Source of the DNA: Tetrahymena thermophila SB210
Taxonomy: Eukaryota > Ciliophora > Oligohymenophorea > Hymenostomatida > Tetrahymenidae
DNA: 64,000 bases
Reading direction: 5' to 3'
Assembly: GCF_000189635.1 (NCBI RefSeq)
Contig: NW_002476162.1
Coordinates: forward strand, 1 to 64,000
Shown piece after piece: positions 21,196 to 63,187 of this stretch. A program made the position numbers and the translations under genes. A model generated the notes under the pieces. That model saw only the letters and a list, made by a program, of their open reading frames with translations, searched no databases and was not told the origin of the DNA. The number at the start of each line of letters is the position of its first letter. Within the stretch, counting starts at the first letter, position 1.

Positions 21196-21451
21196 AATTA
21201 ATTTTTTATTATTTCTTTGTTTATTATTTGCTTTTATATTTATATTAATTTAATTAATTTAAATAATAATTATAATTATTAACTAAATTGAATGTAAAAA
21301 TTACTTTTTTTAATTTAATTTATGGTTAATAAAGTGTTAGAAGTAAATTTAAAATTAATTATCACTGAATGCAATTCTTTTATTTTACGATTAACAATCT
21401 TATCAAAAACAGTTTAGTTTAAAAAACAACTAACTCTAATAAAGACTCATT

Positions 21452-26228: not shown

Positions 26229-28077
26229 TTTGGAAAAATTGAAGTATTCTTTTATGTTACAATAGGCATGTTTTTGAGGTTTTCTGGTGTTTAAAAAATT
26301 TGCAATTCATGCTTTGTTGATTAAATACAATCTTAATATTATAATCTTACATATGTTTTATTGAAAATGCTACTGAAATTTTTAATTCAGCTTTTTTTTT
26401 GATTAATTTATTTTTTTAATTCCATAAGATTAATTTTAAGACTGTAAAGAATATTTTTTAAAATAGTTTTTTTATTTTTCTCTTTATCTGTTTACTTTAA
26501 AATAGAGTACTTTAGTATTTACTAATAAATCTAGTACAAACAAACATTAATTCTTATTAATCTATTATTAATTGGGTATCTGAAAAATTCTTATTTATTT
26601 ATAAAAAAATAAAAGCAAATAATATCATAATTAGACTAAAAAATATAAAGGTAATGTTTTATTAGCTCTGAATACATTATTAAATTAAATTAATACAATA
26701 TATTATTGGTAAATTAAAAGCGATGTGATTAATAATTTCATATATCCTAATTATCATTTCTTTTATAAAAATAATAACCAAATAAATTGTTAGTTTATAG
26801 TTTATATATTACAATCAGCCAAACAACTTTTTTTTTTAAATGCAAAATCTATAAGAAAATAAAATATATGATAAATTTAACGTCTAAATATTAAACTCAT
26901 GTCAAGAAATTTCAGGAAGCTTAGAAGGTTTTGAATATTAATCAACTTATTAGAGTGAAAATGAATACAGTCGCTCAATTTAAAAGATATAATAATTGTA
27001 ATATTATGACTACGAAAATTTAAATAATAAACATTATGAAAATAATTCAATTATAAACTAGATTATTTTACAAATATCAAATATCCAAACGAATATATTT
27101 AAAACAACTTCTTTGTTTTTCTTTCAAAAATAAAAATTTTAATAATTCTTCTTCATTAACCTTTTTTTTGGAAAAATTGAGGTATTCTTTTATGTTACAA
27201 TAGGCATGTTTTTGAAGTTTTCTAGTGTTTAAAAAATTTTTGTAGCAATTCATGCTTTGTTGATTAAATAATTTTAAAAATAGTTCCTTTTAAAACTTAA
27301 AAATAGTTTTTTAATATTTTAATATTAAGGATATCAAGAGTCAATCATCAATCTTAATATTATAATCTTACATATGTTTTATTTAAAATGCTACTGAAAT
27401 TTTTAATTCTTAAGCGAGCTTTTTTTTGATTAATTTATTTTTTTAATTCCATAAGATTAATTTTAAGACTGTAAAGAATATTTTTTAAAATAGTTTTTTT
27501 ATTTTTCTCTTTATCTGTTTACTTTAAAATAGAGTACTTTAGTATTTATATATTAATAAATCTAGTACAAACAAATATTAATTTATTATTAATTGGGTAT
27601 CTGAAAAATTCTTATTTATTTATAAAAAAATAAAAGCAAATAATATCATAATTAGACTAAAAAATATAAAGGTAATGATTTATTAGCTCTGAACACATTA
27701 TTAAATTAAATTAATACAATATATTATTGGTAAATTAAAAGCGATGTGATTAATAATTTCATATATCCTAATTATCATTTCTTTTATAAAAATAATAACC
27801 AAATAAATTGTTAGTTTATAGTATATATATTACAATCAGCCAAACAACTTTTTTTTTAAAATGCAAAATCTATAAGAAAATAAAATATATGATAAATTTA
27901 ACGTCTAAATATTAAACTCATGTCAAGAAATTTCAGGAAGCTTAGAAGGTTTTGAATATTAATCAACTTATTAGAGTGAAAATGAATACAGTCGCTCAAT
28001 TTAAAAGATATAATAATTGTAATATTATGACTACGAAAATTTAAATAATAAACATTATGAAAATAATTCAATTATAA
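26229..28077 (+). repeat. Direct duplication (~0.85 kb) carrying a promoter and gene 5' end
   Basis: The segment from about 26229 to 27058 is repeated from about 27162 to 28077 with very high identity. Shared landmarks are GGAAAAATTGAAGTATTC (second copy GAGG), ATGTTACAATAGGCATG and the start of family-2 coding sequence. The second copy has about 80 extra bases near 27270-27350, and small indels distinguish the two. Each unit contains about 0.6 kb of upstream sequence plus the first ~215 coding bases of family 2. This would be a duplicated promoter with a gene start. Confidence 0.9.
26840..27113 (+). pseudogene. Family-2 gene fragment with internal deletion
   Basis: The ATG at 26840 opens a frame identical to the first ~72 codons of the intact family-2 gene at 27861. 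At about 27056 the sequence jumps directly to what is base ~28351 of the intact gene (motif GATTATTTTACAAATATC), skipping roughly 270 bases. The join is out of frame and the match ends about 50 bases later. No rest of the gene follows; the next duplicated unit begins instead. I regard it as a broken copy, although its promoter-like upstream sequence is preserved and it could still be transcribed. Confidence 0.85.
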
Positions 28078-29363
28078 ATGAAGACATTAATCTAATTTAA
28101 TTTCCTGAAGGCTTTAAATATGAAATATTCCAATTTAACCCTATTGCTTATGAAAACACTTCAGATTATTCTTTTAAAAAAATTATAAACGATTAGGAGA
28201 ACAAAACAGATTCGCAAAGAATAGTTATGAAGAGATAATCAAAAAGCAAAAAAATAAATTATGAAACACTTTTTGTAACTAAAGACACTCCATAAAAAAT
28301 TTTAAGCCTAAACAGGAAATTTTATCTGTTTTTAGATTAGATAATAGACCTAGATTATTTTACAAATATCAAATATCCAAACGAATATATTTAAAACAAC
28401 TTCTCTGTGTAATTAACAAAAGGTTTTAGACTTATAAATAAAGTTTTGCATAGAATCGATAATAAATTTATAGAAGTAGAAATAGAATATTTAACTAGAT
28501 AAACTCAAAGTATAGACTATATAATTCATATTTTGAAATCATTAGGCAATTAAGATTTAATAAAATATATTAACTATTTATCAGAATTTCAGTAGAATAT
28601 AAATATTTGTTAGAATTTAATCTAAAAATAATCTCTCGCATAAGATTTTATTCAGAATAGATTAGAAAGAGAAAAAGCAGCAAATGAGAAATTCAAAGAA
28701 ATTACATCAAATTTAAATCCTGCAAAATTGATATTTTACTAAAGATATTCAGTAAACTATGAAACTTATCAATATGAATCAACAGTCGCAGGATATTCAC
28801 CTGCTTTGTATGAGGTTTTAGATAATGGATCTTATTATTTTAAGAACTACCTATTAAAAAACGGCTATTTCGATCCTATGTCGCCTCTGTTTAGACTTGA
28901 AGAATTCTTTTATAGAGTTTGCTATTTTTCAAATAATTTACCTGAAGAGTCCGATGATGAGATAAATAAATAGGTCAACTTAGAATTAATTACTGTAGAT
29001 AATTATAGATTTCCGGTCACCATGAAGCTTACTCACAGATATCTTGAAAAAGATTTTGATATGCAAAATAATTTAGAATTCAAAATTAAAGACTTGCTGG
29101 CTGTGTATGAATTTTCATTCAAAGATTAATATGCTTATGAAAGTTTAATAAAGGAAAGATAAAACAATATAAAAAATTTATGTAAATCTGAAACAAGTTT
29201 AAGAGAGGATGTTGATTTGATTTAAAATGATTATCTACAAACTGAATTTTTTTAGAAATATTATCAAGATGAGATTTAAAATTTATTAAAAAGAGGAAAC
29301 AAATGGAATAAAATATGTGGTTTTCAAGAAATTCCTAAAAAAAAGTTAAAACAAGAAGTATGA
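27861..29363 (+). CDS. Family-2 protein, possible diverged PAS-like domain, copy 1
   Basis: A single-exon gene of 500 residues, intact with TGA at 29361. The N-terminal ~140 residues are Asn/Gln/Tyr/Glu-rich and probably disordered, with a basic patch (MKRQSKSKK). Residues 145-290 contain hydrophobic and helical segments ending in a Glu/Lys-rich helix. Residues about 311-420 (GYSPALYEVL..., a helical linker, then strands LELITVDNYRFPVTMKL and LLAVYEFSF) resemble the strand order and GYSPAF-type motif of PAS domains; this is suggestive only. No membrane segment, signal peptide or enzyme motif is present, so it is probably cytosolic or nuclear. It points towards family-1 copy C (convergent). 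The product is not recognised. Confidence 0.8.
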
Positions 29364-30532: not shown

Positions 30533-32690
30533 ATTATGCTTAGATTATTTTAAGTCTAACATTTGGTAATAAATTGCTTTATTACAGATAACTATTTTTC
30601 AATTGATAGAGAAATAGCAAATTATTCTTCAAAATAACTCATTTTATAATCTTTTATTTTATTAAATGGACTAAATATTTAAAAAAAAAAAAAATTATAT
30701 TTTACTGCTAAAATTTCTATTTGGAATTTCTTATTTTATGAATTCTTTAGAACACCCAACTAATTTTAAGACAGCTAATTAATCTTTATTCAAAATTATC
30801 ATAATTGCTTTCTTCAAAAGCGTTAAATCTTCAATAATTTTTGAAAAATCAATTAGATTATCAACTTATTGATCTATAAATTGAACATCTTATTTTCCTA
30901 GTCCTAATGAGTTTAAGTAATCTTCCTGTTTATTTAATCTTTTAAATAATTAAATATTTTAATAAATTATTCAAAAAGAAATGTTAAAGTAAACATATTT
31001 TATATCAAACTAATTACTTAAATTTGAATATTTTATCTTAGGCATTTTAAGAAGCAGTTTAGTCAAACAAAATTTAAATTCTTTCATCTATTTTTTTTTT
31101 ATCTTTGCTTCGAGCTTTTTTCTCTTAAATTTGAGCTTTTTTATCTTTTTTAGGATATATTTATTATTAGTTAAAATAATTAGCTTCAGTAAATAGTGTT
31201 ATATTTTTTTAAATAGGACTCTGTTGTATATCTTCAAACTATGCTTAAACTAAATCATAATCATTATTAACTTTTTAGGATTTTTCATCTGTTTGGCTAT
31301 TTAAGATTTAATTGATTGTAATAAGTGTTTTATTCTTAGATTCTATAGAAGATTTATTGTCATAGTTTTAGGAATTAAAATCGAATTATTAAATTTCTGA
31401 ATTAAAGTCCTCTTTAATTTCATCTTTCATTTTATCTTAGAGTTTGCTTATTTAGCTGAGAATACTTTCACATCTCTTTGTTTTGAAAGATGGAATAAAA
31501 ACAGATTAAGTAACTTCTCGCTCTTCTATATCTTCTTCTTTTTCATTATCTTTTACATCAAAATAGGATTTTTTTAAAAATTATTATTCATCTAGAAGTC
31601 TATTTTCATATCCTAATACCTGCGAATATGAATCTTAGAAAATATTTTTTAAAGCAAGAACAAATATATCTTATCTTACTAATCTCTGAGCAAAATACCT
31701 TCCTAAAATTCCTAAGCACATTAAGAGTGTTAGAGTACTATTGCATTAAGCTAAAATCTAAGGAAGATTTGGGTATTAAATAGAAGTATATTATTGAAAT
31801 TCATCTAAATTGATATGAAATTATGTAAAATAATTCAAACCTATAATTTTCTGAACTGTATAAGGGTCAAACATTTATGTATTTACTGTATACGATATTG
31901 GTGAGTTAAATGTTTCTGAAGTTTGTGTAATAGCTCCTTATTTTACAGTAGTAGATTATTATTATAATTTAAGCTCAGATATTGCTATGTTTGATGTTGG
32001 GACCAATAGAATTTAGCTCCTGTAGCATGTTTCAATTAACTTTGATGTAGTATTAAACTATGATACTTAGATTTATACCTTTAAATAAGTTGAAGGATTG
32101 TTTATGTATTTATTTATTTCATTTATGCTAGCGCAGTTATTAGGTACTGAAGTCTTTCTACCATCAGTATCTTAACATCTGTAGAGCATAACCATAACAT
32201 AAGAATATATATTTTAGCTATTATCTAATGCTAAAGTGTAGTTTGAAGGCACATTAGAGAAATCTAAACAATTATATCCAATTAATTTAGGATTTTAGCA
32301 TTAAATACTTTTTAAGTTCCAAGATTTTTTCCCACTATTATCTTAGTAAACAAACTAAGCTAAGGCAACAACATAAGTCTTATTTTCTTTCTTTTCTAGT
32401 TCATCAATTGGGTTTAGTCCACTTTGGCTTAATTAGTAAGCGAAATAATTGCTATTTAAACCTACATTTATTTGACCATTTGCAATGAAGGTTTGATTTT
32501 TAAATGTAGGGTCAATTTAATTAGTAAAAAATTCAATTAGTATTTCGATGAAATAGATTATGGTTAAGGTAATTATAGATATAGTTAAAAACGCTCCAAG
32601 AAGCGTTCTTTTTCTGAGCCTCTATTTTTACTAATTAAACTAAAAAGTTTATGAAAATATATCAAAACTTTTGATAAAAGACAGAAGCAT
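30502..32690 (-). CDS. Two-transmembrane ciliate family protein, copy C
   Basis: Three exons (31018-32690, 30706-30938, 30502-30650) at the same intron sites as copies A and B encode 684 residues with an open frame. The start is MLLSFIKSFDIF, followed by RLRKRTLLGAF into membrane segment 1. The Cys-bearing ectodomain, segment 2 and C-terminal helical module ending RIYSSLL are all present. It is clearly more diverged from A and B than they are from each other and shares its N-terminus type (MLLS) with copy D, so A/B and C/D are two duplication events. Lineage-specific family of unknown function. It is convergent with the family-2 gene at 27861. Confidence 0.85.
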
Positions 32691-33083
32691 TTTTAATTTT
32701 TAGATTGGTAAATTTCCTTTTTTTTGTTTATTAATTAATTATAAAAAATAATTCAAGTTTGTTTTTTCATCTATAATTTATACAGTAGAAAATTATATAA
32801 ATAATTATTTACTATCTAATAGATATTAAAATTTAAAAACTTTAAATTATAATCACAATTTAGATAAGCACTAAAGAGAGAAAAGCTGGTTATTAAAAAT
32901 AAGACAAATAAATGAAATATAATATGAAATGATAAATAAATCTTTAAAATAAACAAGCCAATCAATCAAAAATAAACAATACTTGTTTAAAAGAAAAATT
33001 TCAATCAATGATAAATGCTTGTATTGTATTCATTTATTATTCATAATATAATTTTATACTTTTTAAATGTTTGATAATTTACA
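32691..33083. other. Intergenic upstream of copy C
   Basis: AT-rich, probably the promoter region of copy C. No other feature visible before the satellite begins. Confidence 0.55.
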
Positions 33084-35000: not shown

Positions 35001-35789
35001 ATTAATTTTTTTTATCTGTTTGACATATTAAAATTATTTTTAATATAGTTTAATAAGTATTTAATTATAAGATTCAAAACTATTTATATTTATTTGCTAT
35101 TTTAAAAATGTTTGATCACTGATAATGAGTGATCAAGCAAATAATTTTATTAATAAAAAAAATAAATTTACTTTTTAATTTAAAATAGAATTACAAATAG
35201 TAATAACAAAAATTAAAAATTATTTATTTAGATTTTAAATAACTAGTGCATGGATTCAAAAAAATTAAAAACTATGCTCAAAATATAAACAAAATTTGGA
35301 AGCATTTAAAAAAATAAATTAAATATAAATACTTTTCTAAGGTCATCTTTTTTATAATTTATAGTTAATATTTTAAAAAATTTATCATAATTCAGTAATA
35401 TTATTTTATAAGTAATACTATAATAATCTTTTTATTAAATCTGAATATAATAATAATTATCAATTTAAAAATTTATTAATGAATTTTATGTAAAGAAATT
35501 AAGAATGAATCTTAAAAATTTTTTTGTAATTAGTTATTTGAAAAATATTATTTCCTTTTATAACAAAAAAAATTAATTCAATGAATATAGAAAAAATATA
35601 TTTATTAATGGTCAATTACATCTTATTTAGTTATTAAATTAAAAATAAACTTACTAAATACTTATAAATAAATTAAAGAAAGCTATAAATTACAAATTAA
35701 TTATTTATTAAATCTTTTGTAAAAATATTAAAAGCAAATAATAATTGATTTTAATAGTTTAACATTATTTTTTTAATTTTATCTAAAAG
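35001..35789. other. Intergenic with short perfect hairpin
   Basis: AT-rich spacer before family-2 copy 2. A perfect 9-bp inverted repeat TTGATCACT / AGTGATCAA with a 7-base loop lies at 35112-35136; it is the only notable structure. Confidence 0.55.
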
Positions 35790-37304
35790 ATGCAAAATCT
35801 ATAAGATGATAAAATTAACAATAGCTATAGCTCCTAAATATTAAATGAATATCATGAAACTACATATAGCTTCGAGGGTTTCGAATATTAATTAAAACAA
35901 TTCAACGAAAATGTAAATGATATCTTGATTTAGCAGACATAAAATGAATAATTATAATGTTACTAAGAAAACTTAAACAATCAATTTTCTGAAAATAATT
36001 CAATTTAAATGGAAGATTTTAATCTAATTTAGTTTCCATAAGGCTTAAATTATGAAAATTCATAATTAAATCCTATTTTTTTTGAGGGCTCTTAAGAATA
36101 TATTAATGAAAAAGATGTAAGCAATTAGTAGAACAAAACAGATTCACAAAAAATAATAAACAAAAGATAATCAAATAACAAATAAATTAAATACGAATCA
36201 TTTTTTATTACCAAAAATGCTCCTCAATCAGTTTTAGGCTTAAACAAGAAATTTTATCTGTTTTTGGATTAAATGATAGACTTAGATTATTTTGCTAATA
36301 TCAAATCTCCAAATGAATATATTTAAAACAACTGTTCAGTGTAATTAACAAAAGGTTTTAGATTTCTAAACAAAGTTTTACATAGAATTGATAATAAATA
36401 TATAGAAGTAGAGATAGAATATTTAGATAGATAAACTTAAAGTATCGACTATATAATATAAATTTTGAAATCATTAGGCAATCAAGACTTAATAAAATAT
36501 ATTAGCTGTTTATCAGAATTTCAGAAAAATATATAAAATTGCAAAAAATGTATTTAAAAGTAATCTCTCAAGTTAGATTTTATCTAGAATAGACTATAAA
36601 GAGAAAAAGCAGCAAATGAGAAATTCAAACAGTTAACTTCAAATCTAAATCCTACAAAACTTATATTTTACTAAAGATATTCTGTAAATTATGAAACTTT
36701 TCAATATGAATCGACAGTAGCAGGATATTCTCCTGCTTTTTATGAGGTTTTAAATAATGGGTCTTATCATTTTAAGGACTATCTATTAAAAAATGGTTAT
36801 TTTGATCCTATGTCTCCTCTATTTAGGCTAGGAGAATTCTTTTACAGAGTATGTTATTTTTCAAGTAACTTACCATAAGATATTAATGATGATATTAATA
36901 AATAGGCTAATTTGGAATTAATTACAGTAGATAATTATACATTTCCAGTGACTATGTAGCTTTCTCACCAATATCTAGAAAAAGATTTCGATATACAAAA
37001 TAATTTAGAATTTTAATTTTATGATCTGCTAGCAGTTTATGAATTTACTTTCAAAAGCTAATATATTTATAAAAGTTTAATTGAGGCAAGATAAAAGAAT
37101 ATAATAAATTCATGTATATCTGAAACAAATTTAAGTGATAATATTGATTTAGATTAAAAAGATTATGTATAAACTGAATTCTTTTAGAAATATTATTAAG
37201 ATGACATTTAAAACTTATTAAAAAGAGGTAATAAATGGAATAAAGTATGTGGTTTTTAAGATATTACTAAAAAAAAATTAAAGCAAGAAGAAAAAAGAGT
37301 ATGA
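35790..37304 (+). CDS. Family-2 protein, possible diverged PAS-like domain, copy 2
   Basis: A single-exon gene of 504 residues, paralogous to the gene at 27861 along its whole length. It shares the MQNLQ start, the FYLFLDQ-IDLDYF block, KFI/KYIEVEIEYL, LIFYQRYSVNYET, AGYSPAFYEVL, SPLFRL and LELITVDNYTFPVTM. Both are intact; the N-terminal 130 residues diverge most and the central and C-terminal parts least, which indicates constraint on the putative PAS-like region. It lacks membrane segments and catalytic motifs. It is convergent with family-1 copy D, repeating the arrangement of the first family-2 gene and copy C. Confidence 0.8.
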
Positions 37305-37659: not shown

Positions 37660-40532
37660 TCATGTTAAAGATGAATATATTCTTTTATCTATAGTACTCA
37701 TATTATTTTGAGTTTAACATTTTTTTATAAATTATTTTATCAACTAAGATTATTGTTCAATTTATAAAGAAATCGCAAGCTATTCTTCAAAGTAGCTCAT
37801 TTTAATATCTAGTAATAAAAAAAATTTTTATTATTAAAACAAACTATGAATTAATTTCATTACCTTGATTGGTTTTATTTTAAAGGTGATTTATGAAATT
37901 TCTTGAGCACCCAACTAATTACAAGGAAGCTAATTAATCCTTACTTAAAATTACCATTACAGCCTTCTTCAAAAACATTAATTCTTCAACAATTTTAGAA
38001 TAATCTGTTATATTATCAACTTATTAATCTATAAATTAAAGATCTTATTTTTCTAATCCTAAAGACTTTAAATAAGCATCCTTTTTGCATAGCCTATTTA
38101 TAAAATAAAAATTATAGTATTACAATAATCTAATAAACAAGGAAAATATATTAATTATTATTTTATTATCAATAGCTAAAGAAAATTACATACTTTAGAT
38201 ACTCTAAAATTAATATATACTTTTGCAAAAATTATATAAAAAAATTAAAAAAGTAAAAAATTATTTTAAAAATTTATCATATATCTAAAAAGATGAAAAA
38301 TAATATTTTTAAAGTGTCTAATTAGTTTAATATTATTAATCCCATTGAAAATTATAAATAATTGAAATTTTTTTATTTGCTTTTAGTTTTTTTGAGAGTT
38401 TCATCTAATAACCAAAAAATAAATTAAAGATTGTTTTTTATTTTAGAGAGATCAATTATTTATTGTTTAAAAACAATATAATAATGTCATTTAATGTTAA
38501 ATATAAAATTAATGGGGACATATATTTTGACATGTTCAATTTAATAATTTTTTTAATCTATTTAAAATAATTTTTAATAGATTTTGATTCTATTTTACAA
38601 ATGAATGTTATTTTTATTTTTTAAATTTGATTGAAATATTCTTCTAAAAAAATCTAAAGCTTTCAAATTTTGGAATTAAATCATATATTATTTTTTTTAA
38701 AAGTAAGTATTCATCTTTTCATCAATAAACATTATCAAAAACTATATTCTAAAAAATAAAACTGTATTTTGTTGGAAAAATATTCATATTTTTTAAAATT
38801 TATTTTAATAAGAAAGTTTAATATTAAAAAGGTAATTAATATACTTAAATTTGTATAGTTTATCTTTGATGATTTTAGATGCAGATTCAATTCCAAGTTC
38901 TTACATTATTAAATCTATTTTATTTTGCTATTTATTTTTAACTTTCCTTTATACGTCTTTTTAATCTTAGCCAATGCGAAAAGCTTTTGTTTCTTGTAAA
39001 AAAAGAGAACTATTTTTTTACAATTATGTCTTATTTAATTCTTCATTAAATTGTTAAAAAAATTCTTCTTCATTAATTCTAAGTGAGTTTTGCTTAGTTA
39101 GATAACTTGCAAAAGTACTATTTAAATTCAACTTGCATGAATTAAACTATTTTTTATTATTATTTGATTAAGAAAAAGGAGAAATTTCTTTCATCCTTTC
39201 TTCTTAATTTGTTTGAGAATTAACCAATGCAATTTATTAAATTTTTGTATTTGTACTTTCTTAAAATGCATCTCTTCCTTATCCTTTAACTCTACTAAAT
39301 TAACTTAAATTATCAAATTACTTTGATTTAAAAGAAGGAATATAAACAGAACCTGACACATTTTCTTAAAAATCTTCTTCATTAAAATGTTAGCTTTCTT
39401 AAATTTAAGATTTATTTTAAGATTCTTCTTCATCACCCAAATTATTTTCTTTTCCTAATATTAGTGAATAGTTATCTTAGAACATACTTTTTAATATAAG
39501 AACAAATAATTCTTATCTTATCAACCTCTGCGCAAAATACCTTCCGATTATTCCTAAGCACATTAATAGAGTAAACGCGCTATTACATTAAGCTAAAATT
39601 TAAGGAAGTGTAGGATATTAAATAGAAGTATATTATTTAAACTCATCTAGATTTATATGAAATTGAGTAAAATAGCTTAAACCTATAACATTCTGAATTG
39701 TCTTAGGGTCAAACATTTATGTATTTACTGTATATGATATTGGTGAGTTGAAAGTTTCTTAGGTCTATAAAATTGATCCTTATTTAACAGTAGTAGATTA
39801 TTACTATAATTTGATTTCTGATATTGCTATATTTGATGTTGAAACCAATAGAATTTAACTTCTATAGCATGTTTCAATTTACTTATTTGTTGTATTAAAC
39901 TAGGATACTTAGATTTATACCTTTAGATAAGTTGCTGGACTATTTAAGTATGCATTTATTTTTTCTAGGCTGGCACAGTTATCAGGTACAAATGTTTTTC
40001 TAATATCTGTATCTTAGCATTTATACAAAGAAACCATGACATATGAATAAATATTTTAGCTATTATCTAATGCGATTGTGTAATTTGAAGGTACATTTGA
40101 GAAATCTAAACAATTATAACCAGCTAATTTAGGATCCTAACATTAAAAAGTTTTCAATCTCCAACTTTTTTAACCACTATTATCTTAGTAAACAAATTAA
40201 GCTATAGCTACAACATATGTCTTATTTTACTCCTTTTGAACTTAATCAATAGGGTTTAATCCATTTTAGCTCAATTAATATGCAAAGTAATCGTTCTTTA
40301 ATTCTACATTTATTTCATTTTTAGAAATAAACGTTTAGTTCTTAAATGTTGGGTCTATCTAATTATTAGCGAACTGCTATAATAGTTATATTAAATACAA
40401 AACTGTTATAGAGATTATTGATATAGTCAAAAGAGAGCCAATAAGTGTTCTTTTTCTAAGCTTCTACTTCTTAGAATTGAATTAAAATGTTTAAGAAAAT
40501 ATATCAATACTTTTTATTATAGATAGTAGCAT
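37660..40532 (-). CDS. Two-transmembrane ciliate family protein, copy D
   Basis: Three exons (38845-40532, 37864-38093, 37660-37808) give 688 residues. The start MLLSIIKSIDIF, the RKRTLIG entry to membrane segment 1, the ectodomain with conserved cysteines, segment 2 and the C-terminal helical module ending RIYSSLT are all present. Splice phases match copies A-C. The first intron is 751 bases (38094-38844), against about 80-107 in the other copies, so it has gained sequence since duplication; no gene or coding-like frame was seen inside it. Lineage-specific family of unknown function. Confidence 0.85.
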
Positions 40533-42168
40533 TTTTATTTATTAGTTATCTTGCTTTTTTAAAGAGTAATTATTTGAATGTTTTTTTGTTTTTTTTTTTC
40601 TTTTTTGTTTAAAATAATCAAAAATTCATTATATTTGCAAACTAAATAATTGATGAATTAAATAAAATTATATACAGTATATTTTTTAAATTAATCGATA
40701 AATTCAAGAAATTTACATTTATAGCCACAAGTTAATTAACCTTTATAAATTTTGATAAAATAATTCCTTTTTAAAGCTGCTTTATAATTTATAATACCAA
40801 AATTGAAAAAATATGTGATCAATACCCAAAAAATATTTTATTAAATTATGATATAATTGTCAAAATTCAAAATTTTAAGAATTACTTTACAATGAAAATT
40901 AAAATTATAGTCTTATAATTTAGCAAAAAAACAATAAGTAATAAATCTCTCAATATTAAGAAGAATTTTCTTTGATTAAGTAACATTAAATCACATTTTG
41001 TTAAATTAATTGATAATATTAAAATTGATTCCTACTAAATAAATTTTATATTAAAAATATTTATTTAATTTATAACATTGAAAAAAATTATATTTCTCTA
41101 TTAATTAATTGTGATAATTTTTTAAATATAAATAAATAGAAAATTATGTAGTTTGTTTATTTGTTTATTTTTTTGTCTGTTTGTTTCTTTGTTTGTTAAT
41201 AACTTCTTTATTGTTTAGAATGATAAATAAGCTTTTTTATTAACATCTATTAATGTTTAATTGATTGAAAACCAAAAAGTGTTATTTATTTTGTAATGCC
41301 AATTATTGAATCAAACCAGTTAAAAATTTTTGAAAAATTAATTAGTTAAGTCAATAAATTGACTAGCTTTTCTAAATTATTTGAATCAGATTCATATTTT
41401 TAATCCAATTAAATTTTTATAATACCAAAAAGTAATTTTACTAAAAATATGGCGTTTAATTTTAGTTTTTTGATTAAAGTAAAATTATGTTTTATTGGTT
41501 GATTATTTAATGTATACAAATATTAATCTAGGGTTAATAATAAAATTAAATTGATTTCAAAAAAAGTTAAAAAATTATTTGTATTTATATTTATTATTTT
41601 TACAATACTAAAGTGTAATAAAATTTCAACACAAGAAAAGGAACAATATGATTTATTTTTTTATTTAGTTATTCACATCTTATACTTATGATTAAATAAA
41701 TACTTTAATTATTTTACAAACGAATAATTTTCATTTTTAAATAAATTTATTTTTTTGTAAAAAATATTGAAAGAGACCATTTTTGCTGTTCTGATTAATT
41801 TAATTTATTAGAACATAATCTGTATAGTGAAAATTTTTACAATTAATTCTTCTAATCTGAAAAAAGCGATATTTTAATTCATAATATTTTCATCCAGTAT
41901 CTTAAAATTTAAAAAGTAGCTTTTAGTAAATATAATTTCATTATTTTATTATTGTGTTTCAAATTTCCATTTTTTGTTAACTTAATATTATTTTAAATAA
42001 AAACTAAATCGTAAAAACAAAAAAATTTTAGATTATTTATTTTAATTGTTACAAAAAGACAAGATCGTTGATAAGTTAAGTTATTTATTTATTTATTACA
42101 TATAATAATATAATTTAATTAATTAATATTATAAAATTTAATTTTAAATTAGTAAAGTAATTAATTTA
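40533..42168. other. Intergenic, AT-rich
   Basis: About 1.6 kb of AT-rich spacer containing TTTGTTTATTTGTTTATTT-like simple sequence at about 41150-41200. It marks the edge of the duplicated accessory block. No gene recognised. Confidence 0.6.
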
Positions 42169-48688: not shown

Positions 48689-50476
48689 TCACAAACAATA
48701 TAAATCTACACGAGTTCTTTCGTGAATAGGAATGTCAGAATCTTTGAATAAAGTAATTATAGCAAAATTTCCTGCTTATGAGCCATCACGTATAACATAA
48801 TTAGGATTTATGACGACGGTATTATAGATTTTAGTTGCAAATTTTGGTAGAGATGAAGGAGAGATAATTATATGAGGATATTATTCTAGCTAGTAGTCAA
48901 AAGGGATGTCAAAATCATTTATATTAGGAAGTTTTACAGTTTCTAATATTTATTATGAATCTTGTGGATTTCTCATAGGATATATGGAGTACAAATTTTA
49001 TTAATTCATAAGTGCTTTAAAAGTAAGACGTGATTGCTGCATGTAGGGAATCTTTTTATCTAACAAACTATTTTAAAGAGTGATCATACCGACATCTGAG
49101 TTAGCAATGTAAACTCTTAATTTATCAATATCAATATAAGCTGGATTAGAGTAAGAGTGAATAGAATTCTTATGTTCAGAAACTTTAATTTCAAGACTCA
49201 TTTAAGGAATAGAGTCAGTGGAAAGAATATCGCGAGTAGAAGGGACAATGATTATTTAAGTTTTTCCTTCTAATTCCTTTACAGCTTTTTCAAACAAGGA
49301 ATTTTACAATTACTCAAAAGTATATTCTTTGCTATTTATTATAATACTGCCATCTTTTAAAATTTCATTCTTTATATCTAAAAATGGTCCAAGAAGGATA
49401 AGAGTGCTTACTTTCTTAGTCTTTGCAACATGAAGAATGTTATCAAATGATGTATATTAAGTAGACATAACAGTAGAAAAAGGACCTGCAGCTACCATGA
49501 TAAGCTAACTTTCATCTTAGTTCAAATTATCAATTTTTGGATGTTCTTCATCAGTTATTTCCTTAATGTGATCTGTGATTAACTCACTTACTACTAATTC
49601 TTCTTTTTCATTTATGATACCTTTAACCATCACTATCTAATTAGGAAAAAGAACATTGTTACCAAAATCAAAATCGTTTTCAAAGACGAGATCGAAATAT
49701 TGATTTCTATTAAGTTCTATCCTTAAATTTGTTGTATTCAAAAAACCATTTTCTGTCGATATCAATCTGCCAACCATTTTTACTTCTTCTGTCTTAGAGT
49801 AAGAGCTGACATCATTTATTAACTATTCACCGTTAACTATAAATTAACTGTAATTTTGTATTTTGAAAGTTAGGATCCTTTATTCGAGATGTTTGCGAAT
49901 TTTATCAATATTATTTGTTAAGTAGTTAGGAATTTTATTAGGATCGTATTATTCAAATAAATCGACAATAGTCATATTGTTGGAATTCTAATGCTAATTT
50001 TTTTCGAAGTTTACCTAGGGAAGGTTACTATTATATGAAAAACGTTTTGGGTCTAGCATTGATTCCTTTCCTAACTACTAACGCAATTATTCTTCGCAAT
50101 CAATTGCTGCATTATTTGCTTATTAAGTAGATGTCTGTTTTTTGGCTGAAGAAGCTTTAGTAAATAAATCTGCATCACCTTTAATAATGTCTATATTTTT
50201 TTAAACTTCAGATTCCTTTATTTTTTTAAAATTGTCATTTTGAGGTTTTTTGATGTCCTAATTAAGCACATTCTTCTTAAAATCCATCAGTTAAGCTTCA
50301 AGAAACTTTTACTTGCTATTGTAAATGATTGCCTCCAATTAAAAGAGCCACTTTTCCATTAATTACTCATCATCTAATATTCCATTGCTAATAATTAACT
50401 ATTTCAATTATTAAACTGCATTTTGGCTTAAATTAGCAGAATCAATTTCTTCTAATATTTTTTCAAATTCTTCCAT
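48689..50476 (-). CDS. POLA2: DNA polymerase alpha subunit B
   Basis: One uninterrupted exon of 595 residues; human POLA2 is 598. An N-terminal helical domain (MEEFEKILEEIDSANL...) is followed by a linker, an OB-fold region (KMVGRLISTENG through the LVFENDFDFGNN area) and the calcineurin-like inactive phosphoesterase domain. The latter is marked by IMVAAGPFS, LILLGPFLD, IIVPSTRDI and the C-terminal ISPSLPKFATK / VVINPNYVIRDG / AGNFAIITL blocks typical of replicative polymerase B-subunits. The protein tethers the catalytic subunit and primase and is needed to start DNA replication; it has no catalytic activity of its own. Two E2F-like sites lie about 160-190 bases upstream of the start, consistent with S-phase control. 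Confidence 0.93.
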
Positions 50477-51430
50477 TTTGCTATTCACTAGTTTCTACTT
50501 TGTAAAATATTAATTAAATTTGTTTTTATCATATATCTTTTGACTAAAAAAATAAAATACTTAACATCCCGTAAACTGCTAACAAATTAAATAGAGGTTT
50601 ATTAATTATTCACTAATTTGATTGGAACATATTTAAATTTGGCGCGGTATTATTTCTCAGGCGCCTAATGTAAACTATTTAAAAAGGTTTAAAGCTATTA
50701 AGTAGAATTAAAATTTTATTGGAATCTAAGTAAGTTTTATGACATGAAAAATTATATTTAAAATACGTTGAAAATAAAGAAATTTTATTATAATTTTGAT
50801 AAAATTTAATTTACTAAATATTTACAAATAAGCAATTACAGTAAAAAAAATATTTAAAAAATTAAATTAGGAAAGAATAAATTGAGATGAATGCAAAAAT
50901 AATATTCTTTTAATAATATACATTTATTTGATGAAAATATAAACAAAAATGAATGAATATTTAAGGAAATTTTATTTAAATTATAGTTTAAAGTGAGTGA
51001 TAAATATGTTTTTTTTTGAAGTGGTTTTTTATTTAATCTTCTGATTATAATTTTAATTATATTTATCATTAATTATTATATATAATAAGTATTTATTAGC
51101 TATTTATTTTTAGGTGTATTTTTGGTTATTATTAATTTAAAAGTTTATTATTTATTGGTGATAGGCGATAGCTTGCTATTATGGAAAATTTTAATTTAGG
51201 TCATATTTTTATAAGATTAAATAGTTTAAGCTGATAAGTACTGATTTTAAGAATAAAATAGCCCTATTTTACTTAATCACTTTAATTGTAGGAAATATAA
51301 TACCTATGTTTTATTTTACCATTTAGTTTATTTTTATTTTAGCTTTTAGCATTTTGTTTTTAATAATAAATATATTTTCATTTTCATTTTCTAAAAATAA
51401 GTAAAAAAGTTTAGGCATAAAAATTCCCAT
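50477..51430. other. Intergenic containing the POLA2 promoter
   Basis: AT-rich spacer between two minus-strand genes. Apart from the GC-rich element annotated at 50638-50668, nothing gene-like was seen. Confidence 0.6.
50638..50668. promoter_or_regulatory. Paired E2F-like sites upstream of POLA2
   Basis: TTTGGCGC (50638-50645) matches the E2F/DP consensus TTTSSCGC exactly. GGCGCCTAA (50660-50668), read on the minus strand as TTAGGCGCC, matches with one mismatch. They face each other across about 14 bases in an otherwise nearly GC-free region 160-190 bases upstream of the POLA2 start codon. E2F control of replication genes is established in animals and plants; use here is inferred. Confidence 0.7.
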
Positions 51431-54400
51431 TCAAAATTTCCAGCGAGGTTTATTTGATTAAATATTAGAGTTAAGTAAACCGCTGCTCACTGTGAATATA
51501 TTATCAGATTCTGAGCTGATTGCATTTATGTTTGATGATTGCTTTAAGTAGTCTATTTTTTAATCTACAAAAACATTTTAGCTAGGCTAAATTTGATTAT
51601 ATGATAAGCTACTTCCAGTGTTAGTGTAGTTTTAATTTAAAGTCAGAGCTTAACCAGGAGAGTTACTACGAATACGATTTTTACTTGTTCCCAATTATTT
51701 TTGTTTATCAAGTTTATTTTGAAGACCTTTTTAAAAATTTTATTATTTTGTTATTAATGAAAAAAAGAAATCTATTTTGAAATTACTTTAAATATCAGGA
51801 GAAAATGATCTATATTAAGGTGTCTGCTTGCCAATACTCTGCTTAGAGAGTACATTAGAAGTTCCAATTGTAAGACTCTCTTTTAGCTTCTATGTTTCCA
51901 TAAAGTTATTTGTCATAGGTTAGTAGACTGTGTAGGGCTAAATGTTATAATTCCTTTTAAAATAATTATTTAAAATTAAAATTAATTTATTTTTAATTTT
52001 TTACTCTTTTAAACTCTTATCAAAAGATTACTAAGGCTTTGATTGAGGAGGCTTGCTGATCAATGATGTCTTCATCGTTTGACCTATTAAAAAATAAGTA
52101 AAGATATATCAATTGGCTAAAATAGTCTTAATTGGTTACTTGAATTTATAGGAGATTTATTTGATGAAGGTATGATATTGCTATATTTATCATTTCCATT
52201 TAAGGTTTCAGAGTTCAATCCAGAAGATCCTGAAGTTATTTTGTTAGAAATAGTTTGAGTAAGTGAAGAGGAAGAAGGAGCCTACTAGAGATCTTAGCTT
52301 GATAGGTTAGACTAGTTTATTGATGTAGAAAATTAGTTGTAGGTGTTACTAGAGAATCTATTTGAGTCAGATGTGGAAGTTTATTAAGATTAAACATTAC
52401 TATTAATGCTGTATTTAGTAAGATTGGACTACTAAAATGATTTGCTCAGTGAAGTATTAATCGTACTATTTGTGTTGTTAGTTGTGCTTGTTAGTGAATT
52501 TTACTCTCTTGGTTTTAGAGGCTTTATCAAAAAAACAATTTAAAAAAGGGTAAAATATAAATTTAATTTACTGGTCTTTCATTCTTTATGTATCCTTTTG
52601 TATTATTGTTGTTGTTACTTACTGGGCTTTTATTAGTCTATAAAAGATTTCCAATAGCTTATTTTGCTTATGATTGAGAACTTAAGTAAAGGTTGTCTGT
52701 ATTTTTGAGATTGCTGTTGCTGTTACTTTAAGTATCACTGTTATGGGCTGATTGAGTTCTTACATAATTATTTTAGAGAAGAGGTTTCTCAAGTAAATTA
52801 TTACCCTACTATATCTAGGAATTCTTCATCTATAATTATAAAATAAAATAAAATAGTTTAGAAAAATGGTTTTTTTATTATCAATTTTAGTTACCTCATT
52901 ATTTAAATAGCTAAATTAATTTTTTTATTGCTGAAGAAGACTTTCTTATTTTTCTTTATTAGAAACTGATGATGGTCTATTATTTGCTTGTAGTTAGTAA
53001 TTCAGTTTATTACTCTAGGGGCTTCTTTCTTCATCAAGTTTTTTTGGTAAGCTATTGCTTCTGTAACCACTTTAGATTTAAAGGTTCTAGGAAGAGCTTT
53101 TATTAGTTTGGGGATCAGTACCTAGCTAGCTACCAAAACTTGTGTTATTTTTTTAAAGCAAACTCATATTAGAACTATTGTTATTATTGAGAGTTGTATT
53201 GCTTTGTTTTGTGTTATTATTACCTTATGGATTTAAATAAGTTTAGATAGAGTTTTTTGCTGAAAGATTGTTTTTATTTCCCACAGAATCTTTTTCATTA
53301 TCAAAAGCCCTTAAACTGTTGCTTCTAATCAAATTTGTAGTAGAATTTGTATTTGAAGAAGATGAAGAATGAGGTTATTGCTGTTCAAGTATCTTTGAGA
53401 TTAAATTTTATTTTTTCTCTTGCATTTAAGCACTTTGAGGTGGCATCATTTTATTACTTTTATTCCCACTGCTTGATCCATTACCAGCGCTATTGGAAGT
53501 CTAAGCTATTTTTTTATCATTTAAAGTGCTGCTCAAAGCATTTGTAATGCTTTTTTAATTATATGGTGAGGTTATTGCTGATGAACTAATACTTTTGCTT
53601 CCACTGTTATTACCTGAGTTTAATGTTAGGGAATTTTAAAAGGTAGTTGAATTTTTGGAAGAAGTATTTGCACTGTTAAGAGCCCTTAGTAAAATTTCAC
53701 CCTAAGTCTTTATTTGCTAAGCGCTGCTTGTAATAGGATTTGGAATATTTAGGTTTTATTTATTCTCATTATTATTTAAATTAAATTACACTGATGTATT
53801 GTTATCATTAACTCCAGAAGTATTAGAGTTATTAGCCTTACTAAAATTATTACCAATATTCAAAGTTTAAAGCTGACTCCCACTAATATTACTATACTAT
53901 TGGGAATTTAGTTAATTTAATTACTATTATTATTACTAATATTACTAAGCAAGTATTCCTGTAGATCCTGATAAGGCTCCAGATTTGTTATTTAAACTAT
54001 TAGAATTTATTTGCTGATTCTAATTATTAATAGGAATTTACTATTAGAGGTGTCTTATTTGCTAAGAGAGAAGAGGTTAATGCTGTTGAAAGCTTGATTG
54101 CTAATTAGTATTTGAAGAGTATTATTAAATAGACTAAGAAGATAGTTGTTAACTGTAATTGCTATTATTCTTGTTTTATAGTAAGGAATTACTAGTTCCA
54201 TTAATTTATTAATTTTAAGCATTTTGAATTTAATTTATGTTATTAATACTAAGATTATTATTTGAATAGAAGTTACTGTTGCTTATATTATTACAACTGG
54301 AAATTTCTGTCTTTTATTAGCTAGAGTTAAGTAAGAATGATGGCTGATTTCCTAATTAAGAAGCATCCTCTACAAGTGTTTTGACACTTTTGTTATACTT

Positions 54401-56614
54401 GAGCTATGGTCCAAAAACTCCTATTTGTTTACCACTCATAGATCTAGTCATTCCATTTTTCTATTGTTATTAGTTTTGCTATAGCATAGCTCCTTCACTT
54501 CCCACTCTACTGTGTTTATTAGATCCCTTTTTAAAATAAATTTTAAATAATCTTAAAGACAAAATTAAAGAATGCAGGAATAATAGAATTAGAAGGAGCA
54601 TGAAGTAGTAATTCTTAAATTATTGTTAAAGAAATTATATTTTATACCTTTAGACAGGATTTAATGGGTTTCTTACTTAAAGATGATTATCTATAATGCT
54701 AAATAGGATTGAATGTATCAGGATTAGGAAAGACTGCTACATGCAAATCACGATTATGATGAATATCATTCCAAGTAAGCTTATCTTTTTTTTCTTTTCT
54801 CATCATTTACAATTATATTTATTCATCTGAAAAGATATCAGCAACTGGTGCATTTCTTGAATTCAAAAAGGTATTTCTGATTATTAACTCCTCAACATTT
54901 ACGATTCCATTTGGAAAATAGGATATTTCATTCCAATCTTGAATCATAGCTCCTGCTCCTGTAATTTAGAGTTTTTTTGATAAATTGGTGAGTTATTAAA
55001 AAAAGCTTGATCTAATTTCTAAATCAGGTCTTCTGGAATTTAAAAATTCAAGTGTTTTTAACAAAGCCCAATTATATCTATTTTATTAATATTATTTTTA
55101 AATTAACAATCACATTAATTTTTTATTGCAAAAGCTTGTGTATCATTTTTAAATTTGAAATCAAATTTGCAACACAAGCAAATAATGAATGTATTGAAAT
55201 CTAATAAATACACAAACAAACGCTTTAAAATTTCAAAAAGTAGCAGAAATAGAAGTAGTTGCTGTCAAATCAAATTTAAAATAAATCAAATTATTTCATT
55301 CAAAAAATTAGTGATTTTAATTGAAATTGTATGATTTTTAATTGGTTTATACAGGCAATTTATAATAAAAGCGGAGCTAAACTTTGATAGAAAAAAGAGA
55401 TATTATTTTTTTTAATTACTTTTTCATAAAGTAGGATGCCAACACACAGCACGCGCGGCTCTATCCTTTGACAGAATGCACAAGAGTAGATTCACCTGCT
55501 TCGGCAGCTTCGTCTATAAATTTTACTATCTCATTCAAGATCTCATCTTATTCATCAAATAATATCTAAATCATTTATTTAATATTTGCTTTAATTAACT
55601 CTTCAAATAATAATTAATTTTGCTCGATGAAGTCATTAATTTTGAAATTTTGGTAGGATTATTTTGAAATTTTATAAAATATTCGCACCAAATAAAATAA
55701 TAGTCGACTATGATATTTTAGAATAAACATATTTATTACTTATTAATCACTTTAAGTCCAAGGAAACGTTAAATACATAACGCCTATTTGTTCCCAAATA
55801 TTGCCTATGCTTTGCCCTGCACAATTAATAATGTGAGTAACTTTGTTAGTAATAACAAACTCTAAGTCCTGTTTTTAAATAATATTATTAACAACGCGAA
55901 AGATTAAATTGATGTGCTTGGCTCTTTTATATTTATTTTAATAGCTAAATAGCCAATATAGCTAAATTTAAAATATATTACTTAAGCAGCGTATTCATCT
56001 CCTATAAATAAACCATCTTTTATTTTAATAGCCCCAATAATACTATGCTGCTCTTCAATGGGATTTTATTTGTTATTTTGCATATTCATTCCCTTTAAAT
56101 TCTAAAATGTCGGTAATCTTTTACAATAATCTGTTTTAATAAATGCACTCTCTTAAATTTATAGATAATATCCGAATGCTCTTGGTTATATTTATTGAAA
56201 GGTTGATAGCTAGCTATTCAGAATAATACTTTTATTGCTAAATCTTTTCTTCTTGCTTTTTAATTAAAAGTTTTCTTGATTATTTGATTTCAAAATTTGA
56301 TTTATTAACAAATATATAAATAACATTAGGAGAAATCCAAATAATTTCACTTATTTATTTGAAATGTCAATTTTTATGATTCCTATTCAATTAAATAACC
56401 AAAAAAGGTTTCCTTCCATTCAAAAATTGAACTAATATAAACTAAAATCGCTTGTCCAGCATATTTAATATAAATCTTATTAAATTACGTTTAAAATCCT
56501 TAATTGATTCTTTCAAAAATCATCTATTTTATTTGAATTGTATTTTCTTTTTCATAAATTTAAAATATTTTACTGAAATATATGATTGGTTCTCCTCATT
56601 CTGTCTGGTTCCAT
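51431..56614 (-). CDS. Catalytically dead dual-specificity phosphatase (STYX-like) with Q/N/S-rich tail
   Basis: Twelve exons: 56574-56614, 56351-56509, 55982-56255, 55740-55868, 55420-55565, 54648-55077, 52895-54526, 52572-52829, 52140-52521, 52005-52083, 51787-51953, 51431-51726. They total about 1,330 residues. The introns at 55566-55739, 51954-52004 and 51727-51786 are multiples of three without TGA and could be retained. A ~135-residue basic/Gln N-terminus precedes the phosphatase fold: KIKDGLFIGDEYAAQ, then VTHIINCAG, MYLTFPWTQSD, LVHSVKGQSRA, SYFMKK and LKTLEFLNSRRPDLEI. The H-C-x5-R loop reads H-S-V-K-G-Q-S-R, with Ser232 where the nucleophilic cysteine belongs and Arg238 kept, so it should bind but not hydrolyse phosphoproteins. 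After a conserved ~100-residue segment (MIQDWNEISYF...) the remaining ~900 residues are Ser/Asn/Gln-rich and low-complexity, like prion-like scaffolds. The first three exons are less certain. Confidence 0.82.
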
Positions 56615-61376: not shown

Positions 61377-62213
61377 TCAATTTAAATGCTTCTAGAAGAA
61401 GGCAGCAACTTCTTCAAGAGCTTTATGAGCTACATCAGCATTGTAATGTACTGAATTCTAATTCATAAAAGCATGTTCACCGTCCTTCCATAATCTATAT
61501 TGTTTTTTGAATAAAAATGTATTTATTTTAAAATATTTAAAATTTTATAAAATCTATTACTTGAGTTCAAATTGAAGCTTTAATTCGTGGGCTTCCTTTT
61601 CAACTTTTCTAGCAGTTTCGGGATCAGAAAATCCTTTTGAAGTGTCAAGCTCTCCAAAGTGGGCTTGGACTGGGACGTGGATGTTCTTCAATGGGAATTT
61701 AGTCAAATCAGGAACACCATAAAAGGGAGCACCAGCACTAAAAACTTGTTAAGTAGTAGATAAAGCAGCAAATGTCAATGCACCACCTAAGCAGAAACCA
61801 AGGATACCAACCTTAGTACATCCTAATTTCTCCTTAAGATGTAAGGCAGCTCCTTTCATATCAGCTACAGCACCTGTCCAATCCAAATCACTGAAATAGT
61901 GTCCTGCTTCCTAAAAAAAAGAAAATTATTGATTAAAATGAGAATTCAGACAATTAAAAATTACTTCTCTGTTTTTAGCACATTTTCCTCTATATACATC
62001 AGGCACAATAACAGTGAATCCCTTAGCAGAGAATTTATCAGCAGTGATGCATAATGATTGGTTCAAGCCCCACCATTCTTAAATTAATACTAAACCATGC
62101 TTAGATCCGCCATTAGGTTATGTCAAATATCCCTTACCATCTTCTCTTCCTTCAACATGGAAAGTAACGTTGTGCTATCCTGCAGTAATAATTTCAGTTG
62201 CAAGTTTATCCAT
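61377..62213 (-). CDS. Dienelactone hydrolase family protein
   Basis: Three exons (61965-62213, 61561-61910, 61377-61494) encode 238 residues, the usual size for this alpha/beta-hydrolase family. The nucleophile motif is GFCLGGAL with Cys123, the acid is in HFGELDTSKGF (Asp172) and the histidine in DGEHAFMN (His207), so the Cys-Asp-His triad is complete. LIQEWWGLN near residue 43 is the family's conserved oxyanion-side motif (usually EWWGL/IFGL). Members hydrolyse dienelactones or related esters in the cytosol; eukaryotic versions such as CMBL cleave ester prodrugs. Physiological substrate here is unknown. Codon use is noticeably less AT-biased than its neighbours, suggesting high expression. 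No targeting signal. Confidence 0.93.
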
Positions 62214-63187
62214 TTATTATGTAAAACTAACTTTTTATTTTTTAATGTGTTTTTGATAAAATAAATAATGTATGTTAAAATAAATAAATAATTATTAATT
62301 ATCAGGAAGATTTTTTTATAAATATACAAAAAATATAAAAGATATTATTTATTAGCTGATTTAATTATCAAAGAACTTCTAAAGAAAAATCTTTGAATCT
62401 ATGTTAAGCATAGATAGATATTTCATTCATAAATTTACAAATTTTTTCTCTAATCTAATAAAATAGATCAATAATTAATAAAAATTAAGATTTTTCTAAA
62501 GAAAAGTAAATAGAAATAAATATATATTTTTTAATTTTAAAACTTTTACAAATCTCAAATACCCAAAAATAGCATAAATCAGACACTCAATTCCTCAGCA
62601 AAATAAATTGATAGTTGATATTTTAATTTTGTTATTTATGATTGGTTGAAAAATAAGTATTGTATAAATATAAATTACTGACTTAAATGTAACAACCACC
62701 TTTAAAAGAAATCAAAAAATATCTTTACTTCTTCTAATTTCTTTAAATCTTCTAAATTATTGTAAGCTATTAACTTACATCTAAATTTAAAAAATTCAAA
62801 CAGCTTAATACTATTCATATAAATTTTAGAGTTTTAAGATTTTATTATTAAAATTATTAACAAAAATTATATTTTTTGATAAGTTTATTTTTATAAAACA
62901 AAATCTATAAAATTTTAACTCAAATCATTTTTTAAAATATTTATAAAAAGCAAAAAATTTTTTTAGTCTTTAAAAAATATGGTGAACATTTATTTTGGAA
63001 ATAATTAATTAGAAGTTACAGTATAAAATATTATTTAATGAATCAAATATATCTTTTAAAAAAATTTAAGTTTAAAGAGTGAAATACAAATAAATCAATA
63101 TACATTTAATCCCAACATAAAGTTTCTAAATAATATATTTATGTATAAAAGCTATGCATTTAGCAATAATTAAATTTAAAAAAACTT
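62214..63187. other. Intergenic, AT-rich
   Basis: About 1 kb between two minus-strand genes, presumably promoter of the hydrolase gene and 3' region of the next gene. Nothing else seen. Confidence 0.6.

Follow-up and report, generated by a model that had tools for sequence, protein, structure and literature searches.

Several DSP-type pseudophosphatases, in which the P-loop Cys is replaced, come closest to the protein described here. STYXL1 (MK-STYX) is a short protein, not known to carry a long tail. It has Ser for Cys, with Phe-Ser in place of His-Cys, and carries an N-terminal CH2 domain (PMC8269279). It is located in the mammalian radial spoke RS3 (PMC12399478, PMC11779644), whereas a study of Tetrahymena reported no counterpart of it in that spoke (PMC12399478). 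In mouse Styxl2 (DUSP27), which extends to residue 1138, an N-terminal DSPc domain with Ser225 in place of Cys is followed by a long tail; amino acids 510–1138, which lack the DSPc, are reported to be both required and sufficient for the action of the protein on non-muscle myosin II, the DSPc being dispensable (PMC11147509). STYX itself, described with Gly for Cys, is catalytically dead but still folds and binds partners. In protists, the trypanosomatid STYX group comprises atypical DSPs with a substituted P-loop Cys, one gene being given for each of three species (PMC2175518), compared with six genes here. Finally, crystals of the C88S mutant of DUSP22 hold PO4 in the P-loop, and most mutations in the D-loop/P-loop/N-loop network of this enzyme raised KM, with the exception of D57N (PMC7589817).

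The gene studied here lies in a window of 64,000 nucleotides, the whole stretch of Tetrahymena thermophila DNA that was analysed. Like STYXL2, its product has an N-terminal DSPc, Ser for Cys and great length, so the architecture is not unprecedented, as an earlier note on this DNA had believed it to be (PMC11147509 for Styxl2). This is a resemblance of layout, and it has limits: STYXL2 belongs to vertebrate striated muscle and exerts its known effect without needing the DSPc, while a Q/N/S-rich tail, an N-loop Arg and a six-gene expansion are the features described for the ciliate genome. In contrast with STYXL1, where a CH2 domain precedes the DSP, only a DSPc is recognized here (the match begins at residue 27), the tail and three upstream open reading frames having no Pfam match. 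On our analysis, a ciliate STYX-type scaffold would be the best reading of the locus.

Gene model and phosphatase domain

In ciliate code 6, the model is a minus-strand gene running from 56089 to 51431, with 10 exons and a product of 1208 amino acids (Table 1). All joins are GT-AG introns with compatible phases, inferred solely from the splice consensus and the open frames; three of the nine joins allow alternative GT-AG pairs, and translation could also continue through the last intron (51786-51727), whose frame stays open. The spliced model ends at the same stop as proposed before. Its start is less certain: the window frame remains open upstream of 56089 to 56386, and the window alone leaves the choice undecided. 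However, an in-frame TGA precedes the homologous first Met in three of five paralogs (by 1 codon in C405, 14 in C206 and 5 in C138), which favours a start near 56089 over one at 56614, as does the lack of Pfam matches in the three upstream frames. We therefore take 56089 as the start, with some uncertainty; the roughly 120 additional N-terminal residues of the earlier note are doubtful, and the Ser that it numbered 232 becomes residue 110.

Table 1. Exons and P-loop of the modelled gene (window positions)
Feature	Position	Strand	Content	Basis
Exon 1	55982..56089	-	MNMQNNKQNPIEEQ..GAIKIKDGLFIGDEYAAQ, probable start codon	frame open; GTAATA donor at 55981
Exon 2	55740..55868	-	DLEFVITNKVTHIINC..WTQSDQQ; D-loop, general-acid position = Gln75	splice join, DUSP22/DUSP10 alignment
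Exon 3	55420..55565	-	ILFDEQDE..LVHSVKGQSRACCVLASYFMKK; P-loop with Ser110	splice join, PF00782 match 55413-55550
P-loop octapeptide HSVKGQSR	55455..55478	-	Ser110 codon TCT for catalytic Cys, Arg116 kept	
Exon 4	54648..55077	-	YNWALLKTLEFLNSRRPDLEIR; Arg150 for N-loop Asn, and extension to KLTW..SCLK	splice join, family and DUSP22 alignments
Exon 5	52895..54526	-	GSNKHSR.., Q/N/S-rich tail; islands KYNKSVKTLVED, RSNSLRAFDNEK, YRSNSLPKK, RPSSVSNKEK common with C405	
Exon 6 (tail)	52572..52829	-		splice join
Exon 7 (tail)	52140..52521	-		splice join
Exon 8 (tail)	52005..52083	-		splice join
Exon 9 (tail)	51787..51953	-	PYTVYQPMTNNFM, RSFSPD; MTNNFM shared with C206, RSFSP with C405 and C206	splice join
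Exon 10 (tail end)	51431..51726	-	RSNSPGQ, C-terminal KPRWKF, stop TGA ending at 51431	

Within the first 271 residues of the spliced product, Pfam recognizes a DSPc at residues 27-161 (E 3.6e-18). The peptide V-H-S-V-K-G-Q-S-R is read in ciliate code 6 at window 55481-55455 on the minus strand, and the replacement of Cys with retention of Arg, noted earlier for the loop, is found again in the translated, spliced domain. The general-acid Asp is replaced by Gln75 and the N-loop Asn by Arg150 in the family alignment, and the DUSP22 alignment pairs these residues with D57 and N128, respectively. The three best PDB matches of the family profile are DUSP22 structures with Ser for Cys, although a profile built from Ser sequences favours them (69.6 bits, against 67.2 for the wild type); in 6l1s, LVHSLAGVSRS corresponds to LVHSVKGQSRA of our protein. 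The C88S protein differs in being an engineered mutant of an active enzyme, with D57 and N128 kept. STYX is matched less well by the same profile (2r0b, E 1.1e-10, versus 2.6e-18 for DUSP22).

A family of six genes

Five relatives were found in the same genome (C405, C206, C138, C306 and C288). DSPc is recognized in all six proteins (PF00782, E 2.8e-15 to 7.1e-22), with a core 40-60% identical to the present one, and the ~100-residue extension that follows it is common to four. Introns 1 and 2 occupy the same place in every gene, and intron 3 in four, being absent from C206 and C306. The P-loop Ser, Gly and Arg are invariant across the family, so that the nucleophile Cys of the HCxxGxxR signature of active DSPs is absent from each member; the N-loop Asn is lost throughout (Arg in five, Gln in one), and the five relatives have Glu (three) or Asp (two) at the general-acid position. 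Since the general-acid Asp is replaced in four of the six proteins and the N-loop Asn in all, catalysis appears to have been given up on several counts. A DSP domain with the Cys replaced and the P-loop Arg kept assigns the family, by sequence, to the STYX-type pseudophosphatases, in line with the pseudophosphatase that the earlier note saw in this protein; the binding of partners or phosphoproteins that goes with this class is putative.

The six Ser domains form one clade (support 99/99) in a tree with 25 Cys-bearing domains, and the distribution of Cys and Ser on this tree corresponds to one change, a value as low being reached in none of 500 label shuffles. The Ser codons are TCT, TCA, AGT, TCA, TCG and AGT (TCN in four genes, AGT in two), and the two AGT genes lie on different branches of the family. 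Either Ser outlived switches between codon sets two bases apart, or it may have arisen repeatedly from Cys. A census with PF00782 gave 55 places, reduced to 52 DSPc-type genes by counting each of three split pairs as one: 45 have Cys, five Ser, one Asp, and one is unreadable. All five Ser genes belong to the family; C288, its sixth member, was missed by that profile and stands outside the census. Set against the many Cys genes, Ser in every member of the family is more than chance would give. One other dead DSP, C167 (HDLNGINIG), was seen in the genome, and it has lost the Arg as well. Two further queries of the genome, in which only the best candidates were scored, gave no seventh member. Searches with a few short patterns gave 317 matches in prokaryote genomes and 119 in viral contigs, of which none was confirmed as a relative. 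No family member was among the matches listed (60 of 83) in either PDB search, nor did the family appear in the titles and abstract openings of the matches listed for pseudophosphatases or DSPs, Tetrahymena, Paramecium and ciliate phosphatomes.

The tail and its link to the domain

The very long Q/N/S-rich tail, put at about 900 residues before, has 937 in our model, with 18.2% S, 16.9% N and 13.3% Q (48% together), up to 41 Q+N in 80 residues, and no Pfam match. The C405 tail is similar in composition (50% Q/N/S) and collinear with it, the chain scoring 276 against 127 for the best of 200 shuffles. Q/N/S matches were scored zero in this test, which is therefore silent on conservation of the Q/N tracts. 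The shared islands are motifs of the Arg/Ser/Pro type; the SCLK|GS junction between exons 4 and 5 recurs in C405, which ends in KPKWKF. Of the three paralogous tails included in the test (C405, C206 and C138), C206 and C138 gave no significant collinearity, with 18 and 74 of 100 shuffles, respectively, scoring as high. The C206 tail nevertheless shares MTNNFM and RSFSP with ours and ends in KNKWK. These three tails are approximate, as intron letters or missing exons are possible, and the C405 pieces were joined by hand from open frames.

Because C405, the closest paralog, has the same domain, collinear islands and WKF end, domain and tail seem to belong to a single gene, as first proposed. The opposite view, that the model joins two adjacent genes or that the Ser codon holds a base error, is very improbable. 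It can draw on a gene model built from splice consensus and open frames, but it would have to account for Ser at six loci with both codon sets, and for the junction and the whole domain-and-tail arrangement recurring in C405.

Candidate binding motifs of two kinds were considered in the extension and tail. RSxSxP is the rule for a 14-3-3 mode-1 site; YRSNSLPKK here and YRSNSVPKR in C405 are candidates, and the C206 and C138 tails have none. For PP1 docking through RVxF, with SILK as an optional addition, Trp is accepted at the last position. The motif is given as [K/R][V/I]xF (PMC5437018). The match in the family is partial: KLTW and SCLK of this protein are both inexact, C206 has KIIW and SILK, and C306 has KLRW and SILK; SILK precedes RVxF in Rif1, whereas the order is reversed in this family. 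The S[IC]LK-GS junction is common to four members.

Possible functions of the family

On balance, we consider it probable that this protein is a STYX-type scaffold from a six-gene ciliate family, with a dead pocket that holds phosphate and a tail that acts as a kinase-regulated tether. As six related genes carry the same Ser replacement, the protein probably serves as a functional scaffold and not in catalysis. The pocket would no longer turn over its substrate but would still hold the phosphate group, the DSP domain would dock onto a phosphoprotein, and the flexible tail, with candidate sites of the Arg-x-x-Ser type and an RSNSxP site of the 14-3-3 mode-1 type, would be regulated by kinases and bring partners to that phosphoprotein. 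Phosphate binding by the Ser110 pocket is predicted from DUSP22 C88S, which has the same substitution and phosphate in its P-loop (PMC7589817); the likeness to a substrate-trapping form suggested earlier stands, by this analogy only. The altered pocket might bind weakly, since mutations of the DUSP22 network mostly raised KM (PMC7589817). It also counts against the scaffold that Styxl2 works through its C-terminal part (PMC11147509) and that clear tail homology is limited to C405.

Somewhat unlikely, but the strongest of the alternatives, is that the dead DSP is a folded interaction module blind to phosphate, with function residing in the tail and extension as in Styxl2, where a similar layout is combined with a C-terminal part that suffices without the DSPc (PMC11147509). 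In DUSP22 the pocket is ordered by residues of the D-loop and N-loop (PMC7589817); their replacement here and the collinear islands kept in C405 fit this idea. However, all six proteins retain Arg and the P-loop Gly, whereas the dead C167 lost its Arg, and it is the core that is conserved while the C206 and C138 tails lack significant collinearity.

That the tail is prion-like and nucleates condensates around phosphorylated clients, as the earlier note had imagined, is improbable. Its composition and that of the C405 tail are compatible with such a role, and MK-STYX is linked to stress granules; however, it is listed as antagonizing them, not as a builder (PMC8269279). PolyQ/N tracts are commonplace in ciliates that read TAA/TAG as Q; of 124 meiotic proteins of T. 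thermophila, 106 have them (PMC10942620). The chain test is silent on their conservation here, and condensate nucleation is left unsupported. Residual catalysis through Ser110 or another nucleophile is scarcely credible: Asp stands at the general-acid position in two of the six proteins, but this one has Gln there and the N-loop Asn is lost in all.

The scaffold reading has a bolder extension, which we regard as a long shot. One or a few losses of Cys to Ser would have preceded the change of the N-loop Asn to Arg, which would make the family a set of phosphate clamps reading phosphorylated proteins; the tail would recruit PP1 or 14-3-3 through the S[IC]LK-GS junction and the RSNSxP site, a dead phosphatase targeting a live one, and one member would occupy the position of STYXL1 in RS3.

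The family provides candidates for the STYXL1 counterpart in Tetrahymena (PMC12399478), although no link to cilia was seen here. A predicted consequence of the scaffold reading is that phosphate binding would depend on Arg116 and Arg150. Six paralogs with the same catalytic loss, encoded by two disjoint sets of Ser codons, make a natural case that suggests selection for a dead phosphatase.

Gene model and surroundings

In this 101-Mb genome TAA and TAG are read as Gln (code 6 fits), and the window gene, the minus-strand gene encoding a DSPc domain and a long tail, is modelled as ten exons linked by nine GT-AG introns with consistent phases. Alternative GT-AG pairs exist at three of the nine joins, where the best-scoring join was chosen, and read-through of the last intron is also possible. 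The earlier note placed the start at 56614 and numbered the serine 232; comparison with five paralogs in the same genome (named here by contig: C405, the closest, C206, C306, C138 and C288) suggests instead a start at 56089, hence Ser110, as an in-frame TGA lies 1, 14 and 5 codons ahead of the homologous first Met in C405, C206 and C138 respectively. It also speaks for this start that three ORFs upstream of the gene matched no Pfam family. Against it, the frame stays open upstream as far as 56386, and near the homologous start of C306 and C288 an in-frame stop is lacking.

The DNA polymerase ORF adjoins the 3' end of the window gene on the same strand. Further away, the IBR-domain ORF probably encodes an RBR-type ubiquitin ligase, and the one ORF tested of the four-ORF array gave a weak ERGIC_N match, below cut-off.

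Features of the window
Feature	Position	Strand	Remarks
Window gene	56089 (probable ATG) to 51431 (end of TGA)	minus	ten exons, 1208 aa
Signature loop HSVKGQSR	55478-55455	minus	residues 109-116; Ser codon TCT
Array of four similar ORFs (FIKNFDIFxQTFQFN...)	19459-21402, 23534-25537, 31005-32852, 38784-40625	minus	
Two similar long ORFs	27750-29363, 35445-37304	plus	interleaved with the array
DNA polymerase alpha subunit B	48689-50656	minus	DNA_pol_E_B, E 6.6e-25
IBR-domain ORF	9430-10764	plus	IBR_1, E 2.1e-12
Dienelactone hydrolase family ORF	61377-62426	minus	E 1.6e-29

A six-gene family with serine at the nucleophile position

Pfam DSPc covers residues 27-161 of the product (E 3.6e-18). Searching the genome with this domain identified the five paralogs, which have the same conserved core and for which gene models are partial; no seventh member was found among the best-ranked candidates when the two most distant members served as queries of the same genome. 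The paralog loops are HSVRGQSR (C405 and C206), HSVKGINR (C306), CSMRGQSR (C138) and CSVRGQSR (C288). The Ser, Gly and Arg of the loop are invariant in all six members, which bears out the earlier reading of a Ser replacing the nucleophile Cys with the Arg kept. Every PF00782 match in the genome was inspected (55 places, reduced to 52 genes by counting three pairs as exons of one gene): 45 genes have Cys, 5 Ser, 1 Asp and 1, on contig C134, is unreadable as the exon stops at the loop. All five Ser genes belong to the family, whose C288 member was missed by the PF00782 search and so is absent from this census. Another dead DSP, outside the Ser family, lies at C167:223846-224250; its loop, HDLNGINIG, has Asp for the catalytic Cys and has also lost the Arg.

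When the six Ser genes were put in a tree alongside 25 Cys-bearing domains, chosen for having nearly complete matches within a single exon, they formed one clade (support 99/99) with one state change, a value as low being obtained in 0 of 500 label shuffles. Their Ser codons are TCT, TCA, AGT, TCA, TCG and AGT. Cys codons (TGY) are a single base away from either set of Ser codons. As the two sets differ by two bases (PMC6872785), and as AGT occurs in two genes that are not each other's closest relatives (C288 groups with C138 at 100/99), the serine either persisted while its codon moved between sets or was acquired from Cys on more than one occasion; either history argues against both a sequencing error and a single neutral accident.

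Domain and tail

The phosphatase domain and the tail are predicted to form one gene. The tail comprises 937 residues after residue 271 (48% Q/N/S) and matched no Pfam family. C405 shares with the window gene the domain introns and the SCLK/GS junction, and its tail, read from hand-joined open frames, has about 1050 residues (50% Q/N/S). When the two tails were compared with Q/N/S matches scored zero, nine islands of 12 residues scored above the median of the shuffled maxima, and eight of the nine keep a common order in both tails; the islands include KxNKSxKxxxED, RSxSLxxFDxEK, YRSNS[LV]PK, RPxSxSxKxK, RSFSP, RSNSPGQ and the C-terminal KP[RK]WKF. Scores of 36 and 32 place two islands above every one of the 200 shuffled maxima, which peak at 29, and two others (27 and 27) beat 95% of these maxima, while the other five are singly not significant. 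The collinear chain scores 276, and none of 200 shuffles exceeds 127. Among the three paralogs submitted to the chain test, the tails of C206 and C138 fail it: their scores of 63 and 41 were equalled or exceeded in 18 and 74 of 100 shuffles, respectively. S[CI]LK followed by GS is common to four members, as a splice join in the window gene and C405 and by open-frame reading in C206 and C306. The latter two have SILK, which resembles the PP1 SILK docking motif.

Possible function and known relatives

Aligned with DUSP22, D57 corresponds to Gln75 in the window gene, Glu in C405, C206 and C306, and Asp in C138 and C288; N128 corresponds to Arg150, Arg being present in five of the six members and Gln in C306; the S93 position is Ser in five and Asn in C306; and R94 corresponds to Arg116, an Arg in all six. 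Together with the Ser for Cys, these replacements are predicted to disable catalysis: nucleophile and N-loop are altered in every member, and the acid in four. Mutations of the DUSP22 D57/S93/N128 network were reported to decrease efficiency 40-500 times, mostly with an increased KM, D57N being an exception, and phosphate was present in the loop of C88S crystals (PMC7589817). The pocket of the window gene product may still bind phosphate, Arg150 helping.

On balance we favour a STYX-type scaffold, in which the dead pocket would dock a phosphoprotein and the tail would act as a regulated tether. Ranked second, and rather unlikely, is a domain that is merely a fold, with the tail working alone, as in mouse Styxl2, whose C-terminal part is reported to be active without DSPc (PMC11147509). 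Condensate nucleation, suggested by composition only, is improbable, as Q/N-rich composition is commonplace in T. thermophila (polyQ/N tracts were reported in 106 of 124 meiotic proteins; PMC10942620).

The idea in the earlier note that the architecture is undescribed does not hold, because Styxl2 has a similar layout, with an N-terminal DSPc, Ser225 for Cys and a long C-terminal part to residue 1138 (PMC11147509), and STYXL1 likewise has Ser for Cys (PMC8269279). Among the solved domains compared by profile, those of DUSP22 and DUSP10 come closest and STYX matches less well, a ranking that hints at an independent origin of the family. STYXL1 has been assigned to radial spoke 3 of mammals, and a study on Tetrahymena reported no ortholog identified in this organism (PMC12399478). 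Our analysis provides no link to cilia; the six-gene family is a source of candidates for the Tetrahymena counterpart of STYXL1.
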